Below are positions 25,788-34,572 of a stretch of 64,000 bases of DNA, piece after piece. Both the position numbers and the translations under genes were made by a program. Every line of letters starts with the position of its first letter. Position 1 is the stretch's first letter. The notes under the pieces were generated by a model, which searched no databases, was not told the DNA's origin, and worked only from the letters and a program-made list of their open reading frames with translations. The stretch is taken from NCBI GenBank assembly GCA_029261535.1, contig JAJDBF010000002.1, positions 62,001 through 126,000 on the forward strand, in the 5' to 3' direction. The DNA comes from Nitrospinaceae bacterium (GTDB lineage: Bacteria; Nitrospinota; Nitrospinia; Nitrospinales; Nitrospinaceae).

Positions 25788-27377
25788 ATGAAAAATTTTC
25801 TACGTGGGGGTATCGTATTATTTATCGCGCTTGCCGTTTCTTTGCCCGCCCAGGCACAAACAGTGGAAGAGCGAGTGACAACACTTGAAGGTCAGATGGC
25901 GAATGTTGAGTTGCTATCGACTCAGCTCTTCACATTATTTTCCGCCTTACAGCCAGATATCGTTGCCATCCTCAATGCATTGTCCACTCAAGCATTGGAT
26001 GTCGCCATTTTGCAGGCCAACGTCACCGCGTTGCAAACTTCTGATGGCACTCAAAACACTAACATCACTGCCCTGCAAACCAGTCAGGGGACGCAGGATA
26101 CGGTGATTGCCACGAATACCACGGCAATTGGCAACATTGTTATTCCGGATGTGACCGGAATCGCAACCAATACCACCGCCATCACGGCTCTGCAGACCAA
26201 AGACACGGCTTTAATGGCAACAGACGTTGACCTGCAAAATCAGATCACCGCAATCGTGGTGCCGGATATCACGGCTTTGACAACAGATGTCAATGAACTC
26301 AAAACCCGTTTTAACGGAGTGACCCGAATCGGCACAACTCTGCGGTTTACCGACATGAACCTGCAGGTGGTCAATGGCACGGGAGCAACCGATGGTGCGA
26401 TCAACGGGAAGGGCAATCTCATCATCGGTTACAACGAAGATATTTTTTGGCCTCAACCCGGAGGAATACCCAGTGTCAAAACAGGATCACACAACCTTAT
26501 CGTCGGCAAAGGGTTGAACTACTCAAGTTATGGCGCATTAGTGGCAGGCTCTGACAATATTTCAGATGCCCAATATGCTTCGGTGACCGGAGGTACCTTC
26601 AATAGAGCCGCCGGGAATTTTTCCGTTGTCAGTGGTGGCACTTTTAACACCACCTCCGGTGCCAATTCGAGCATCAGTGGTGGTAGAAGTAATCGAACCA
26701 CCGGATTTTTTTCCAGTATCAGCGGTGGCGAAGACAACTTTACGTCCGGTTTTTCCAGCAGTGTAAGTGGAGGTAATTTCAACGCGACCGCAGGGAATTT
26801 GTCCAGTATCAGCGGTGGTCGGAATAACGATGCAACCGGACTTTATTCCAGTGTCTCTGGTGGGTCCAACAATACCGCCTCCGGCGTACACTCAAGTGTC
26901 ACCGGCGGATTTCAGAATTTTGCTACCTTTACTTACACGAGTGTCAGCGGTGGACGGGGCAACGACGCGACCGCCATCCATTCCAGTGTCAGTGGCGGCT
27001 GGAATAATACCGCTTCGGGTGATTCCGCCAGTGTCAGCGGCGGTAATAACAATACCGCTTCCGGGATTAACAATAGCATCAGTGGCGGACAGGGTGGCAA
27101 TACATCTGCTGATTCTTCCAGTATCAGTGGCGGTTTTAATAACACCACGTCCGCTAACTATGCCAGTGTTCTTGGCGGGGGGACCAACACGGCCTCTGGA
27201 ACATCTTCCACTGTCAGCGGCGGTGTGCTCAATCTGGCATCGGGCACCGGGGCAAATACCAGTGGTGGTCGTAGCAATACAGCTTCTGGATCCCAGGCCA
27301 GCGTCAGTGGTGGACTGAGCAGGTCCTCTACCGGCACCTATGATTGGCGTGCTGGAGCGTTGTTCCAGACTCAGTAA
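25788..27377 (+). CDS. secreted fibre-like protein: coiled coil plus 17 beta-roll repeats (paralogue 1)
   Basis: 529 aa. A signal peptide (cleavage after AQA near residue 23) is followed by a coiled-coil region (about 25-180) rich in ALQTSxGTQDT and ATNTTAIG units resembling stalks of trimeric autotransporters. A connecting domain (about 180-258, with LIIGYNEDIF and GSHNLIVGKG) leads to 17 repeats of about 15 residues, consensus SVSGGxNNTASGxxS, predicted to form a YadA-head-like left-handed beta-roll. It ends TYDWRAGALFQTQ; no YadA membrane anchor follows, so attachment or export beyond the Sec step is unclear. GGGAGGAG lies nine bases before ATG. Adhesin, tail-fibre-like or surface-layer roles are all possible. 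Confidence 0.75.
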   Translation: MKNFLRGGIVLFIALAVSLPAQAQTVEERVTTLEGQMANVELLSTQLFTLFSALQPDIVAILNALSTQALDVAILQANVTALQTSDGTQNTNITALQTSQGTQDTVIATNTTAIGNIVIPDVTGIATNTTAITALQTKDTALMATDVDLQNQITAIVVPDITALTTDVNELKTRFNGVTRIGTTLRFTDMNLQVVNGTGATDGAINGKGNLIIGYNEDIFWPQPGGIPSVKTGSHNLIVGKGLNYSSYGALVAGSDNISDAQYASVTGGTFNRAAGNFSVVSGGTFNTTSGANSSISGGRSNRTTGFFSSISGGEDNFTSGFSSSVSGGNFNATAGNLSSISGGRNNDATGLYSSVSGGSNNTASGVHSSVTGGFQNFATFTYTSVSGGRGNDATAIHSSVSGGWNNTASGDSASVSGGNNNTASGINNSISGGQGGNTSADSSSISGGFNNTTSANYASVLGGGTNTASGTSSTVSGGVLNLASGTGANTSGGRSNTASGSQASVSGGLSRSSTGTYDWRAGALFQTQ

Positions 27378-27731: not shown

Positions 27732-29888
27732 ATGAAAAAGTTTCTACGTGGGGGTATCGTATTATTTATCGCGCTCTTTATTTCCATGCCCGCACAAGCG
27801 CAAACAGTGGAAGAGCGATTGACCACACTGGAAGGTCAGATGGCGAATGTCGAGTTGCTATCGACTCAGCTCTTTACTTTGTTTTCGGCCTTACAGCCAG
27901 ACATCGTTGCCATTCTCAATGCTCTGTCTACTCAGGCGTTGGACGTTGCTCTCTTGCAAGCTTCTGTCACAGGATTACAAACTGATGTGACCGCTCTGCA
28001 GACAGGCCAATCCACGTTAACGACAGATGTCAGCACTTTGCAGACCAGTCAGGGAACACAGGACACGGCAATTGCCACCAATACCACGGCAATTGGCAAC
28101 ATTGTTATTCCGGATGTGACCGGAATCGCGACCAATGCTACCGCCATCACTGCTCTGCAGACCAGCCAGGGGACGCAGGACACGGCTATTTCTGGATTGC
28201 AAATTTCTGACGGCACGCAAAATACTAACATCACCGCGTTGCAAGCCAGCAACACGACGCTGACTACAGATGTCGGTGCCCTGCAGACCGGTCAGGCAAC
28301 TCAAGACACCAACATCGCGACATTGCAGACGGGACAGTTGGCACACGGCACCAGTATCTCGGCTTTGCAAACAAGTCAAGGCGTTCAGGATACTGACATC
28401 ACGACCTTGCTGACGGGGCAGTTGGCGCATGACACCAGTATCTCGGCTTTGCAGACCAGTCAAGGTACGCAAGACACGGCGATTACCACGAATACCACGG
28501 CAATTGGCAGTATTGTTATTCCGGATGTAACCGGAATCGCGACCAATGCCACCGCCATCACTGCCCTGCAAACATCTGATGGCACGCAAAATACCAACAT
28601 CACAGCGTTACAAGCAAGTAACGCGACGCTAACCACAGGTGTCGGTGCCTTGCAAACCAGTCAAGGGACGCAGGACACGGCGATCACGGCGTTACAAACC
28701 AAAGACACGGCTTTAATGGCAACAGATGTGGACCTGCAAAACCAGATCACGGCTATCGTCGTGCCTGATGTTGCGGGTTTGATTACAGATGTTGCTGAAT
28801 TACAAACACGCTTCACAGGTGTTTCCCGTACCGGTGATGTTCTCCTGTTTGACAGCATGAACCTGCAAGTGGTGTCCGGCTCTGGCACAACCGATGGAGT
28901 GGTCAATGGCAAGGGCAACGTTATCATTGGATATAATGAAGACATCTTTCCGTTTTTACCTGGAGGTACTACCCCGGTAAGCGACAAAACCGGCTCGCAC
29001 AATCTAATCGTTGGCAAGGGGATAAACTACTCCAGCTACGGTGGGCTGGTCGCCGGTTTGAACAACGTTTCGGATGCGTCTTACGCCTCGGTGACCGGTG
29101 GAGACCGCAACCAGGCGAAAGCCCCGTTTGCCAGCGTCAGTGGTGGGAGAGTTAACACCGCTTCAGGCCCCTATTCCAGCGTCAGTGGGGGATCTGGAAA
29201 CACCGCTTCCGGAGATGGTTCCAGCGTCAGTGGCGGGCAAACCAACGATGCTTCTGGATTAGATTCCAGCGTCAGCGGTGGACAACATAACCGCGCTGGA
29301 TTGAGTGCCTACACCAGCGTCAGTGGTGGCATATTTAATACAGCTTCCGCTCTATATTCCAGCGTCAGTGGTGGCGATTCAAATATTGCTTCCGGGATCA
29401 GGTCGAGCGTCACAGGAGGATTTGAAGGTACCGCATCTGGATTTCAGTCCAGTGTCAGCGGTGGCAATAACAACACGGCTTCATTTACCAATTCCAGCGT
29501 CAGCGGTGGTAAGGACAACACGGCCTCCGGTAATTCCGCCAGCGTCAGCGGGGGCTGGGATAATACCGCTTCTGGTAATTCCGCCAGCGTCAGTGGTGGC
29601 AGACTCAACATTGCTTTGGGGGGTAATAGCAGTATCAGTGGCGGTCAAGGGGGCGACGCGACCGGGGCTTCTGCCAGTGTCAGTGGTGGATTTAATAATA
29701 CCGCATCCAACACTTTCGCCAGTGCACAGGGCGGAAACAACAACACTGCTTCTGGATTAATCTCCAGTGTCAGTGGCGGACAAAACAACATTGCTTCCGG
29801 CAATTCCGCCAGTGCCAGCGGTGGCTTTAACCGATCTGCCATCGGCTCCAATGACTGGGTTGCTGGAGGGTTGTTCCAAACGCAGTAA
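27732..29888 (+). CDS. secreted fibre-like protein: long coiled coil plus 17 beta-roll repeats (paralogue 2)
   Basis: 718 aa, same plan as its upstream neighbour: near-identical signal peptide and first 70 residues, the same connecting domain, 17 SVSGG-type repeats and the end NDWVAGGLFQTQ. The difference is the coiled-coil region, about 25-370, which is roughly 190 residues longer through extra ALQTSQGTQDT / LQTGQLAHDTSI units. The 40 bases before the start, including the GGGAGGAG ribosome site, are almost identical to those of paralogue 1, so this is a tandem cassette duplication. No outer-membrane anchor is seen. Trimer formation is inferred from the repeat type only. Confidence 0.75.
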   Translation: MKKFLRGGIVLFIALFISMPAQAQTVEERLTTLEGQMANVELLSTQLFTLFSALQPDIVAILNALSTQALDVALLQASVTGLQTDVTALQTGQSTLTTDVSTLQTSQGTQDTAIATNTTAIGNIVIPDVTGIATNATAITALQTSQGTQDTAISGLQISDGTQNTNITALQASNTTLTTDVGALQTGQATQDTNIATLQTGQLAHGTSISALQTSQGVQDTDITTLLTGQLAHDTSISALQTSQGTQDTAITTNTTAIGSIVIPDVTGIATNATAITALQTSDGTQNTNITALQASNATLTTGVGALQTSQGTQDTAITALQTKDTALMATDVDLQNQITAIVVPDVAGLITDVAELQTRFTGVSRTGDVLLFDSMNLQVVSGSGTTDGVVNGKGNVIIGYNEDIFPFLPGGTTPVSDKTGSHNLIVGKGINYSSYGGLVAGLNNVSDASYASVTGGDRNQAKAPFASVSGGRVNTASGPYSSVSGGSGNTASGDGSSVSGGQTNDASGLDSSVSGGQHNRAGLSAYTSVSGGIFNTASALYSSVSGGDSNIASGIRSSVTGGFEGTASGFQSSVSGGNNNTASFTNSSVSGGKDNTASGNSASVSGGWDNTASGNSASVSGGRLNIALGGNSSISGGQGGDATGASASVSGGFNNTASNTFASAQGGNNNTASGLISSVSGGQNNIASGNSASASGGFNRSAIGSNDWVAGGLFQTQ

Positions 29889-31126: not shown

Positions 31127-32449
31127 TCAAACATTCTTGGAATTTTTAAAAGTCGGCTGATTTTTTCTTCCTTCATTTTTCTTAAGCAGAACCAGCAATT
31201 CCTGCCACCGGGGGATATCGACCAGAGCCAGATGACGCAGGTTAAAATCAAGACCTCGTTTTTTCATGCAAGGGTAACCGAGCCCCAATGAAAAAATCAG
31301 AATAAGAACATTTTCAATTTGCAGACGGGCCCACGCTTTCAAGTCCAGATTAAACTCAAACGTGCCCTGGTCAAAATGAGTACGCCTCCAAAGAGCCTGC
31401 TTGATCACAATAAAGGACCAGAACCACAGCGGGGCACCCCACCCAAAAGTCACCAACGTCACTCCCCATCCAATGTAAAAGGGCCGCGCAATATCTCGCC
31501 AGCTTCCCGAATAGCGAAACGCTTGCCCACCAAACGCGGTGTGTTCTATACGAAACTTCCAGGCCTGGCTCCAGTAAACCGGACCGTATAATCCCAAAGA
31601 CAATACCAGCAACAGCCAACCTTTAAGGTGCAACCCAAACCAGCTACGGAACCTGCCTCTAAAAGAAAACGTCAGATTGTGCCACTGGGTTTTCGACAGA
31701 CGATAGCGGGTTTCGCTCCAGGCCAGATAAAACAACCCGAACAATCCTGCTACAAAAAACAGCGTTTCAAAAAATGGCGATAGCAGGGGATCCACCCGGT
31801 GCAACCAGAGCAAAAAGAAAAATGCGAAGACAGTTGCAAGCAGAGTCTTCACGCCAGTGGTGGCAAGCCCCTGCGCCGTTCCCCGATAGCGGAAAGATTC
31901 ACCACCTAAACTGGATTGACTCCAAATGTATTGACGCAGTTCGGTGCGTCCCCAGAAAGAATACACACCGAGGCTGAGCAAAGAGAACACCCATAGCTTC
32001 AGATAAAGTGCGGTCAGATCGAGCGCATCCCCCTTGAAAGAAAACTCCAGGGAATCGCGCCAGCGGGACGGTTTTTCTTCTTCTGCCTCGAGATCCTCTT
32101 CGGTCACTTCGCCTGGTGAAGAAGGAATGTTTCGGGGGGATGCCAGTTTTATGGAAGAATATCCAGAGACACGGCGAACCTGAAAGCCAAGTGATACGAG
32201 GTAGGGAATGGCGGTTTCCGCTTGTTGTTTTGAAACCGGCTGTTCAAACTTCCACGGCTCACCACTTGCGACCAGGTTCACGACTCGCCGGGCCTCCTCC
32301 GGAGTCAACCGAAATACTTGGGCCAGTCGCTCACCGGTGACAGAGACATTTGCTCCGTTCCAAGAATGAAGAAGAAGATAAACGCTGATGGGAACCTTCC
32401 CTGGTGCTCGGCGCACAGCCAACGGGAAACATCTCAGCGATGCGCTCAA
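31127..32449 (-). CDS. DUF898 (YjgN-like) membrane protein with L7/L12-like N-terminal domain; 5' end disturbed
   Basis: 440 aa. About residues 20-95 form a small alpha/beta domain (ERLAQVFRLTPEEARRVVNL, then WKFEQPVSKQQAE and LGFQVRRV) resembling the ribosomal L7/L12 C-terminal domain and clearly homologous to the product of the next upstream gene. The remainder is DUF898: repeated YSFWGRTELRQYIWSQ / GLYGPVYWSQAWKFR units with about six to eight membrane helices. The only start is TTG at 32449, and the first 15 codons lie exactly within a dispersed repeat unit, so the natural start was probably lost or replaced. Function of DUF898 is unknown. Confidence 0.7.
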   Translation of the reverse strand: MSASLRCFPLAVRRAPGKVPISVYLLLHSWNGANVSVTGERLAQVFRLTPEEARRVVNLVASGEPWKFEQPVSKQQAETAIPYLVSLGFQVRRVSGYSSIKLASPRNIPSSPGEVTEEDLEAEEEKPSRWRDSLEFSFKGDALDLTALYLKLWVFSLLSLGVYSFWGRTELRQYIWSQSSLGGESFRYRGTAQGLATTGVKTLLATVFAFFFLLWLHRVDPLLSPFFETLFFVAGLFGLFYLAWSETRYRLSKTQWHNLTFSFRGRFRSWFGLHLKGWLLLVLSLGLYGPVYWSQAWKFRIEHTAFGGQAFRYSGSWRDIARPFYIGWGVTLVTFGWGAPLWFWSFIVIKQALWRRTHFDQGTFEFNLDLKAWARLQIENVLILIFSLGLGYPCMKKRGLDFNLRHLALVDIPRWQELLVLLKKNEGRKNQPTFKNSKNV

Positions 32450-32596
32450 AAACTATTTCTGTTCTTAAAAGGTCAGCCCGGTAGCCCCCACGCCAGTGGG
32501 TGCTCGGCGCACAGCCAACGGGAAACATCTCAGCGATGTGCTCAAAAACTATTTCTGTTATTAAAGGGTCAGAACACTGCCCCACCGCGAGGTGGT
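32405..32596. repeat. tandem 96-bp dispersed repeat with GNRA hairpin (copies B and C)
   Basis: Two direct units start at 32405 and 32501, each TGCTCGGCGCACAG then CAACGGGAAACATCTCAGCG and a shared CTCAAAAACTATTTCTGTT. Hairpins CCCAC-GCCA-GTGGG (32487-32500) and CCACC-GCGA-GGTGG (32582-32595) end the units; the second has a GNRA loop. The array overlaps the 5' end of the DUF898 gene and touches the stop of the next gene. Confidence 0.7.
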
Positions 32597-32934
32597 CAGC
32601 GTTTTTTGTTAAGCTCCAGCCAGATTTTTCCCATTATACCTTTATTGCCTGTATTGGCTGGCTCCTCTTCAGCGGGTTCGGCATCGTCTTGAGCCATGTC
32701 CTCAGCCACCGGGTGGAGTTCCACTTCAAAGCCCTTGCTGGATAAAAAATTTTCTGCCATCTGGGATTGTTCAGTGGAAGTGATCTGCTGAAACTGCCAG
32801 GCGTTGCCATCAGAAAGCCCGATTACAATGCGGGAGGCTTCTGCCTTGGTTATGCGAAATACTTTTGCTAACTGATCTGCCGCAGATTCGAGATCATCCC
32901 CCTCAAAACGGTTCAGCCCGATACGATAACTCAT
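32596..32934 (-). CDS. stand-alone L7/L12-like domain protein
   Basis: 112 aa: an N-terminal strand (YRIGLNRFEG), helix ADQLAKVFRITKAEASRIVI, a WQFQQITSTEQSQ turn and the strand GFEVELHPV, followed by an acidic tail and a basic end (KIWLELNKKR). Residues 1-75 align with the N-terminal domain of the DUF898 protein downstream, so the pair are related modules in one minus-strand run. Resemblance to ribosomal L7/L12 C-terminal domain is structural inference; it is not ribosomal protein L12. Role unknown. Confidence 0.6.
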   Translation of the reverse strand: MSYRIGLNRFEGDDLESAADQLAKVFRITKAEASRIVIGLSDGNAWQFQQITSTEQSQMAENFLSSKGFEVELHPVAEDMAQDDAEPAEEEPANTGNKGIMGKIWLELNKKR

Positions 32935-33678: not shown

Positions 33679-34572
33679 TCATTTAAAATCGTAGGCGATT
33701 TGCTGTTGGGCCCAACCGAGAAAACCGTCTTTCTGAGGATCACCGGAAAAAGGATCGTTCGGTTTTACCCAGGTATGAATCTGATCCCAGTTGTCACCGA
33801 AATGGTAGAGGAACATTTTTTTTCTGATATCTGGAGGAAGCAACATCAGTTCCTGATAGGAAGCATGCACCCCGCCTTGAAACAACTGGCAATCGTGGAA
33901 CATCACCTCGGCATCTTCAGCAAATCGTTGCGGGTATTCCTGATCGAACATGGTGTCCCCGGAAATCCAGACGCGACGGTTGATGAACACACCAGAGCAC
34001 CATTGCGATTCATCCACACTGATAGCGGTGTCCGGGAAATGCCGCGTACGCATGATCATTATTTCCATGGGGCCATGCTGATACACCCACACCTTGCGCC
34101 CGTGGATCTGCTGAGTCTTGGGGCGGAGCACATCGAAGAAATCCGTTAACTGCAGGGTGCGACCCTGATTGGCTTCACAAAATTCCGCACCGCCGGATAA
34201 ACTTTTGCTCCACAACAAGTCCTGATAGTCTCGCAGAATAATCAATTGCGGCAAGTCGCGATTAGCGATAGACGGTGTGTAGCGATTCATGAGCATGATC
34301 TCTTCAAAACCGCCAACGTGGTCCGCATGGCTGTGTGTCGGTAAATAGCAACGGACATCCAGCACACTCAAACCAATATCATTCAGTGCCAGCGGACCTT
34401 GCGTCCCGCAATCCACCAACACATGATGGTCCCCCTGAATGAGTAACATGTTGGATTGACGTTTGCGCTTGCAAAAAGCCGACCCCACCCCAATGAAAAC
34501 GACACGAAGTTGCCCATCGGTGGTCAGGGACAGGGGTTTTCCGTCTTCGCAAATAGGGGTTGTCTTATACAT
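33679..34572 (-). CDS. metallo-beta-lactamase-fold hydrolase
   Basis: 297 aa, no signal peptide. The zinc-binding HSHADH motif is at residues 80-85, preceded by LLIQGDHHVLVDCGTQG and followed by a TRHFPDT histidine and the ISGDTMFDQEY aspartate, with a final YHFGDNW histidine, so both metal sites look intact. The sequence belongs with RNase Z/phosphodiesterase-like MBL proteins, but lacks features that name a substrate. No clear ribosome site precedes the ATG. Confidence 0.82.
   Translation of the reverse strand: MYKTTPICEDGKPLSLTTDGQLRVVFIGVGSAFCKRKRQSNMLLIQGDHHVLVDCGTQGPLALNDIGLSVLDVRCYLPTHSHADHVGGFEEIMLMNRYTPSIANRDLPQLIILRDYQDLLWSKSLSGGAEFCEANQGRTLQLTDFFDVLRPKTQQIHGRKVWVYQHGPMEIMIMRTRHFPDTAISVDESQWCSGVFINRRVWISGDTMFDQEYPQRFAEDAEVMFHDCQLFQGGVHASYQELMLLPPDIRKKMFLYHFGDNWDQIHTWVKPNDPFSGDPQKDGFLGWAQQQIAYDFK

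Follow-up and report, generated by a model that had tools for sequence, protein, structure and literature searches.

A probable ATC start codon, conserved within one genus of Nitrospinaceae, in a DUF898 fusion gene that adjoins a standalone copy of its N-terminal domain

The window analyzed here is a stretch of 64,000 nucleotides from a Nitrospinaceae bacterium (contig JAJDBF010000002.1, positions 62,001 to 126,000) and is part of G000, a 3.45-Mb genome in 84 contigs. Comparisons within the genus were made among three genomes, namely G000 (the window's own), G001 and G002. Two genes on the minus strand share a small domain and are separated by a spacer filled with repeat sequence. In positions of the window, the features of the locus are:

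32596-32934, minus strand: standalone domain protein of 112 amino acids, with an ATG start and AGGAGG 5 nt upstream
32402-32595, minus strand: two units of a dispersed hairpin repeat of about 96-99 nt, filling the spacer, identified by profile search
32447-32449, minus strand: TTG of the mechanically listed open reading frame, which lies within the repeat and in our judgment is not the start
32395-32398, minus strand: weak Shine-Dalgarno-like AAGG, 5 nt before the ATC, found with a generic anti-Shine-Dalgarno sequence
32387-32389, minus strand: ATC, proposed true start of the DUF898 fusion gene, from comparison of the start column and the lack of a canonical alternative in G002
31127-32389, minus strand: DUF898 membrane protein with an N-terminal domain of predicted L7/L12/ClpS fold, 420 codons from the ATC and then a stop
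32141-32389, minus strand: the fusion's N-terminal domain, with a predicted model, whose alignment to the standalone copy shows 30% identity
31127-32449, minus strand: listed open reading frame of the DUF898 gene, 440 amino acids from the TTG start

The C-terminal part of the fusion was matched by DUF898 (PF05987) with an E-value of 1.8e-37 and a score of 129.7 bits, against a gathering cut-off of 28. The fusion resembles DUF898 membrane proteins in this part and differs from them in carrying an extra domain at the N-terminus. That domain, of about 75 residues, is common to the fusion and the standalone protein, with 36% identity over fusion residues 6-72, as had been proposed in the original prediction made from this DNA. 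Matches to the fusion protein of the window were observed in 38 of 41 genomes, and from codon 28 to the end pN was lower than pS in all three same-genus pairs. Text searches of the literature, whose coverage leaves most subscription papers outside, returned no report of this fusion gene. Elsewhere in the window, two neighboring plus-strand open reading frames (25788-27377 and 27732-29888) encode many repeats of the type SVSGGxxNTASG, which we take to resemble the head repeats of trimeric adhesins. A minus-strand frame at 33679-34572 encodes a metallo-beta-lactamase fold (Apyc1 model PF23023, E 1.7e-24) and is 92% identical in G002; our guess is that its product is an ordinary cellular hydrolase.

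The tandem dispersed repeat that had been predicted between the two genes was recovered as two copies (32403-32476 and 32499-32572) of 74 nt each, 96% identical and spaced by 96. The pair is not due to chance, since a 31-base core of the repeat gave 0 matches in 100 shuffles. The family profile places the bounds of the two units at 32402-32499 and 32496-32595, and the pair takes up the interval that opens directly after the stop codon of the standalone gene and closes 12 bases short of the ATC. A search of the G000 DNA with the repeat gave 41 matches, the window's own counted in, sometimes in tandem. A profile built from 35 fetched stretches and the window collected 64 matches, of which 48 cover nearly the whole length of 96 columns. 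In 39 of these 48 units a 4-bp hairpin with a loop of 3-5 nt lies near the right end. When the last 30 bases were shuffled 200 times, the number of units with such a hairpin averaged 8.1 and never exceeded 17. The arms of the end hairpin interchange in a compensated manner (GTGC/GCAC, 8 units; GACC/GGTC, 6). Consensus folding of the repeat alignment gave little or no shared structure, while single sequences and the end hairpins do fold; Rfam gave no match at 32200-32800. Thirteen of 53 longer units in these stretches fall within possible genes, open frames of at least 120 codons. A Y1 transposase, considered as a possible mobilizer of the repeat, was found once in G002 and in neither G000 nor G001. 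Among 41 genomes the repeat was detected only in G000 (25 matches with a shorter query) and G002 (4 matches). None of the four G002 matches lies, by position, at the DUF898 locus, and the spacers of G002 and G001 gave no match to the repeat profile. The repeat at this locus either arrived in the window's species or has decayed beyond recognition in the other two.

The first 15 codons of the listed DUF898 frame were originally described as falling inside one repeat unit, and the arithmetic agrees, with 47 nt (15.7 codons) of the TTG frame within the repeat. The accompanying proposals, that the TTG is the true start and that the repeat altered the N-terminus of the protein, were not supported by comparison. 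The conserved protein most likely begins 20 codons inside the listed frame, at the ATC at 32389-32387 and outside the repeat. The first residues, ISVYLLL, are alike in G002 and the window and are encoded from the same ATC. In G002 the frame reads TGA CAG GAG AAG GTT CCC ATC AGC GTT TAT CTT, with an in-frame TGA six codons before the ATC. No ATG, GTG or TTG occurs between this stop and the ATC, nor in the 23 codons past the ATC, the first canonical codon being the GTG at codon 25. This comparison shows the ATC to be the only plausible start in G002, and the repeat, which lies in the spacer of the window's species, to be no part of the protein. Translation from the TTG at 32449, which would add 20 residues in the window's species, is nevertheless what the open frame by itself would suggest, as this TTG is its first canonical codon and the frame stays open through to the ATC. 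We regard this as very improbable: such an extension is impossible in G002 because of the in-frame stop, and the TTG has a weak ribosome site, with only TAAG, 14 nt upstream. The residues encoded by the repeat are also not conserved in orthologues, for residues 1-10 of the TTG-started protein are reached by none of its matches other than the window's own.

The start column of the domain was then read across the order. Of 64 genomes searched, 53 had a match, with 73 matches in all; a fragment in G054 was left out. At the first domain column the remaining 72 domain genes have ATG in 65 cases, GTG in four and ATC in three (49 distinct genes, with 44 ATG, 2 GTG and 3 ATC, plus 23 more, with 21 ATG and 2 GTG). 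The three ATC genes are the DUF898 fusions of G000, G001 and G002, whose standalone copies have ATG. The first domain HMM was built from the two window copies and matches them by construction; a second model of 17 rows, 15 of them from other genomes, likewise begins at this ATC in each of the genus members. The species are well diverged at this gene. Fourfold sites differ at 78 of 129, 63 of 105 and 57 of 99 positions in the three pairs, which is near saturation, and the ATC is identical throughout; recent ancestry therefore does not account for a third base that has stayed the same in this codon. The ATC is carried by three genomes only, and an upstream canonical start is strictly excluded in G002 only. 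Taken together, the closed frame in G002, the start column and the saturated synonymous sites make the ATC at 32389, 12 bases past the repeat, most likely the true start of the DUF898 fusion, although ATC is very rare as a start codon.

A start further inside the gene was also considered. If the old start had been lost in the genus, a canonical codon within the domain might be used, giving a truncated domain. The first canonical codons after the ATC are a TTG at codon 28 in G000 and a GTG at codon 25 in G002 and G001. The latter is common to those two species, and codon 28, TTG in G000, is ATG in G001, which leaves some room for an internal start used by two species of the three. Over the first 70 columns of the alignment, however, the three species never have a canonical codon in one and the same column. 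In both structure models, starting at codon 25-28 would cost the protein its first strand (residues 2-10) and almost the entire first helix (15-26). The codons that would be deleted show pN below pS. For codons 2-27 these values are 0.21 and 0.54 for G000-G002 (p 0.01), 0.36 and 0.56 for G000-G001 (p 0.07) and 0.33 and 0.49 for G002-G001 (p 0.15), the difference being significant in the G000-G002 pair only. Gly12, present in 48 of 49 domain sequences, precedes any canonical codon after the ATC. So does Trp10, found in 13 of 13 aligned fusions and paralogues and not in all 49 sequences, some of which have Phe. A start inside the domain accordingly seems to us hardly credible.

Shine-Dalgarno matches before the ATC are moderate to weak: AGGAG at 9 nt in G002, GGAG at 9 nt in G001 and AAGG at 5 nt in G000. 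With lengths of 5, 4 and 4 nt they are weaker than that of infC. The standalone gene has AGGAGG in all three genomes; with its ATG, it has both a better start codon and a better ribosome site than the fusion. The three species might instead each use a start of their own, namely a GTG five codons upstream of the ATC in G001, the TTG in G000, and the ATC in G002 only. Those codons do occur in frame. Three separate solutions would be needed around an identical 11-nt sequence, CCCATCAGCGT, and the GTG of G001 has no Shine-Dalgarno match, whereas the ATC of that genome has GGAG 9 nt upstream. The chance of such a mixture is slight. Two other explanations were considered. Frameshifting or readthrough from the standalone gene was set aside because the distance from its ATG to the ATC (545 nt in G000, 400 nt in G002) differs modulo 3. 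An assembly error behind the ATC is unlikely because the codon is seen in three genomes, one of which is a single contig.

Other genes of these genomes were used as controls for the ATC start. Of 26 syntenic pairs between the window and G002, all but the fusion have a canonical start in a common column no more than 36 codons from where the alignment begins. Among reciprocal pairs of G000 and G002 open reading frames, the same is true of 109 out of 114 at a limit of 40 codons. One of the five exceptions is the fusion (97 codons). Two others are minus-strand frames on contig C29 that lie over conserved plus-strand frames, ribosomal-protein-like by sequence; one is a minus-strand frame overlying a tRNA-Tyr gene; and one, on C61, is aligned only from 46 and 71 codons in, and each of its two members has canonical codons upstream of that point. 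The 114-pair screen is blind to cases such as infC, where a canonical codon lies a few codons in, and infC was not flagged by it. When infC was read by eye, all 18 genomes examined (L129-L146) showed ATT, ATC or ATA at the likely start, directly ahead of the conserved N-terminal motif. In G000, G001 and G002 the codon is ATT, 7 nt after AGGAGG, from which initiation at AUH codons seems to be in use in these bacteria. The fusion is like infC in its probable AUH start in the same genomes. It differs in that IF3 regulates its own gene, whereas the fusion encodes a membrane protein.

Structures of both copies of the domain were predicted with AlphaFold2. The standalone copy gave pLDDT values of 94-97 over residues 1-70 and a strand-helix-helix-strand-helix-strand arrangement. 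The fused copy, modeled from the ATC, gave 90-95 over the same residues and the whole fold, with the middle strand less well formed. Comparison by VIA-align with the C-terminal domain of Escherichia coli L7/L12 (1ctf) gave Z 9.9 and an rmsd of 1.7 Å over 68 residues for the standalone copy, and Z 9.0 and 1.8 Å over 68 for the fused copy. Comparison with ClpS (9ayo) gave Z 10.2 and 2.5 Å over 76 for the standalone copy and Z 9.8 and 2.3 Å over 76 for the fused copy. The L7/L12 likeness put forward originally therefore holds at the level of fold for both copies. Penicillin-binding protein 3 appears in the same structure lists with Z values of 8.4 and 7.2, so that Z alone is not specific and the arrangement is not unique to L7/L12 and ClpS. 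Foldseek by itself was weak for this domain, its best hit being ClpS at E 2.9e-3.

Sequence profiles place the domain outside both families. In an hmmscan of 20 domain members no match to PF00542 (L7/L12) or PF02617 (ClpS) was found up to E 1, and no Pfam family convincingly matched these members. A PDB sequence search with the domain gave nothing below E 0.5. Against NCBIfam the fusion had no match, and the standalone protein had none above threshold, the one below it being to penicillin-binding protein 2 (E 0.07). Profile-profile comparison with the ClpS and L7/L12 of the same genomes gave no match, but carries no weight, as the control comparison of ClpS with L7/L12 gave none either. These genomes carry their own L7/L12 and their own ClpS. 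The D/N-D and H positions of the latter, which we take to form the N-degron pocket, are unmatched in the domain by a sequence alignment that is uncertain beyond the first half. The domain is thus predicted to be like the L7/L12 C-terminal domain in fold and unlike it in profile, the genome having a separate L7/L12; and to be like the ClpS adaptor in fold and unlike it in profile and in the D/N-D and H positions. On these models and profiles it has the L7/L12-CTD/ClpS fold and is neither L7/L12 nor ClpS.

The domain is a recurring N-terminal module with no matching Pfam model. It precedes DUF945 in G014 (L063:1-1776, minus strand; E 2.1e-63), and DUF4234 in a G000 paralogue on contig C11 (L115:1498-2739, plus strand), where the match lies near the cut-off (26.3 bits against 25.3). 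DUF898 fusions of the domain are present in several families of the order. Within the window's family, each of 12 genomes has a standalone copy adjoining the fusion; in the other families fusions mainly occur with no standalone copy beside them, and none was found by coordinates among their domain matches (64 genomes searched). This distribution suggests that the fusion arose before the standalone copy. The original prediction had proposed duplication and fusion followed by insertion of the repeat. A repeat between the two genes in the window's species, undetected in the spacers of G002 and G001, is supported. The order given for the steps is probably the wrong way round, with the fusion predating the standalone gene. 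A tree of the domain with 49 rows and 78 columns lacks the resolution to prove this. In it the standalone copies of the genus fall near another family, and a single clade of all copies from the window's family was not rejected in a tree test (p 0.27). The three fusions of the genus form one branch with support 100/99, and their domain is on a long branch (1.39).

The best explanation overall, which we hold with good confidence, is a standalone gene with an ATG and a good Shine-Dalgarno sequence, followed by a DUF898 fusion that is started at ATC and carries a diverged copy of the domain. A ribosome would begin the fusion at AUC, which the initiator tRNA would read as formyl-Met, and IF3 would discriminate against such a start. 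The weak AUC start would then keep the membrane-bound copy scarce relative to the soluble standalone copy, and the level of the membrane copy would perhaps follow IF3 activity. The arrangement is most naturally read as a soluble domain that would compete or pair with its copy in the membrane. By analogy with known cases, there is a nearly even chance that the ATC has been kept because it sets a low, IF3-sensitive level. The ATC might also be a start with no regulatory meaning, a mildly harmful change that was fixed once in the ancestor of the genus and never reversed. A single origin fits the one branch formed by the fusions, and only three genomes are concerned. Against this, one base change gives ATG back, and with fourfold sites near saturation reversion had ample opportunity. 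We consider this account possible and incline against it.

The closest parallel is sigR of Streptomyces. IF3 is described as repressing non-canonical starts in infC (ATC in Streptomyces) and sigR (GTC); the GTC of sigR is well conserved in Streptomyces, two other genera named there use ATG, and once a canonical codon is put in its place SigR outstrips its partner RsrA (PMC5472188). As described there, sigR is like the fusion in three respects: outside infC, it has a non-canonical start that is conserved in one genus and is ATG in two others, its annotation had been shifted to a nearby upstream canonical codon, and it has a neighbor gene whose relative amount matters (PMC5472188). The two differ in the codon (GTC and ATC) and encode unrelated proteins, and the fusion has a weaker Shine-Dalgarno sequence.

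A probable conserved ATC start outside infC replaces the reading of a gene start invaded by a repeat, and is in our view the more interesting finding. The same features may serve as a recipe for further cases: the same column, ATG in relatives, near-saturated synonymous sites and a closed frame upstream. The locus also indicates that a module of predicted L7/L12/ClpS fold, matched by no Pfam model, fronts at least three kinds of uncharacterized proteins in the Nitrospinales. If the start is true, it would be a natural AUC start conserved across species divergent enough to saturate synonymous sites, and its conservation makes it a good case in which to test for control by IF3. More speculatively, and again by analogy, the fusion could be an IF3-sensed gene outside infC, in which the AUC sets the ratio of soluble to membrane paralogue and the amount of the latter serves as a readout of translation initiation; we think this rather unlikely as it stands.
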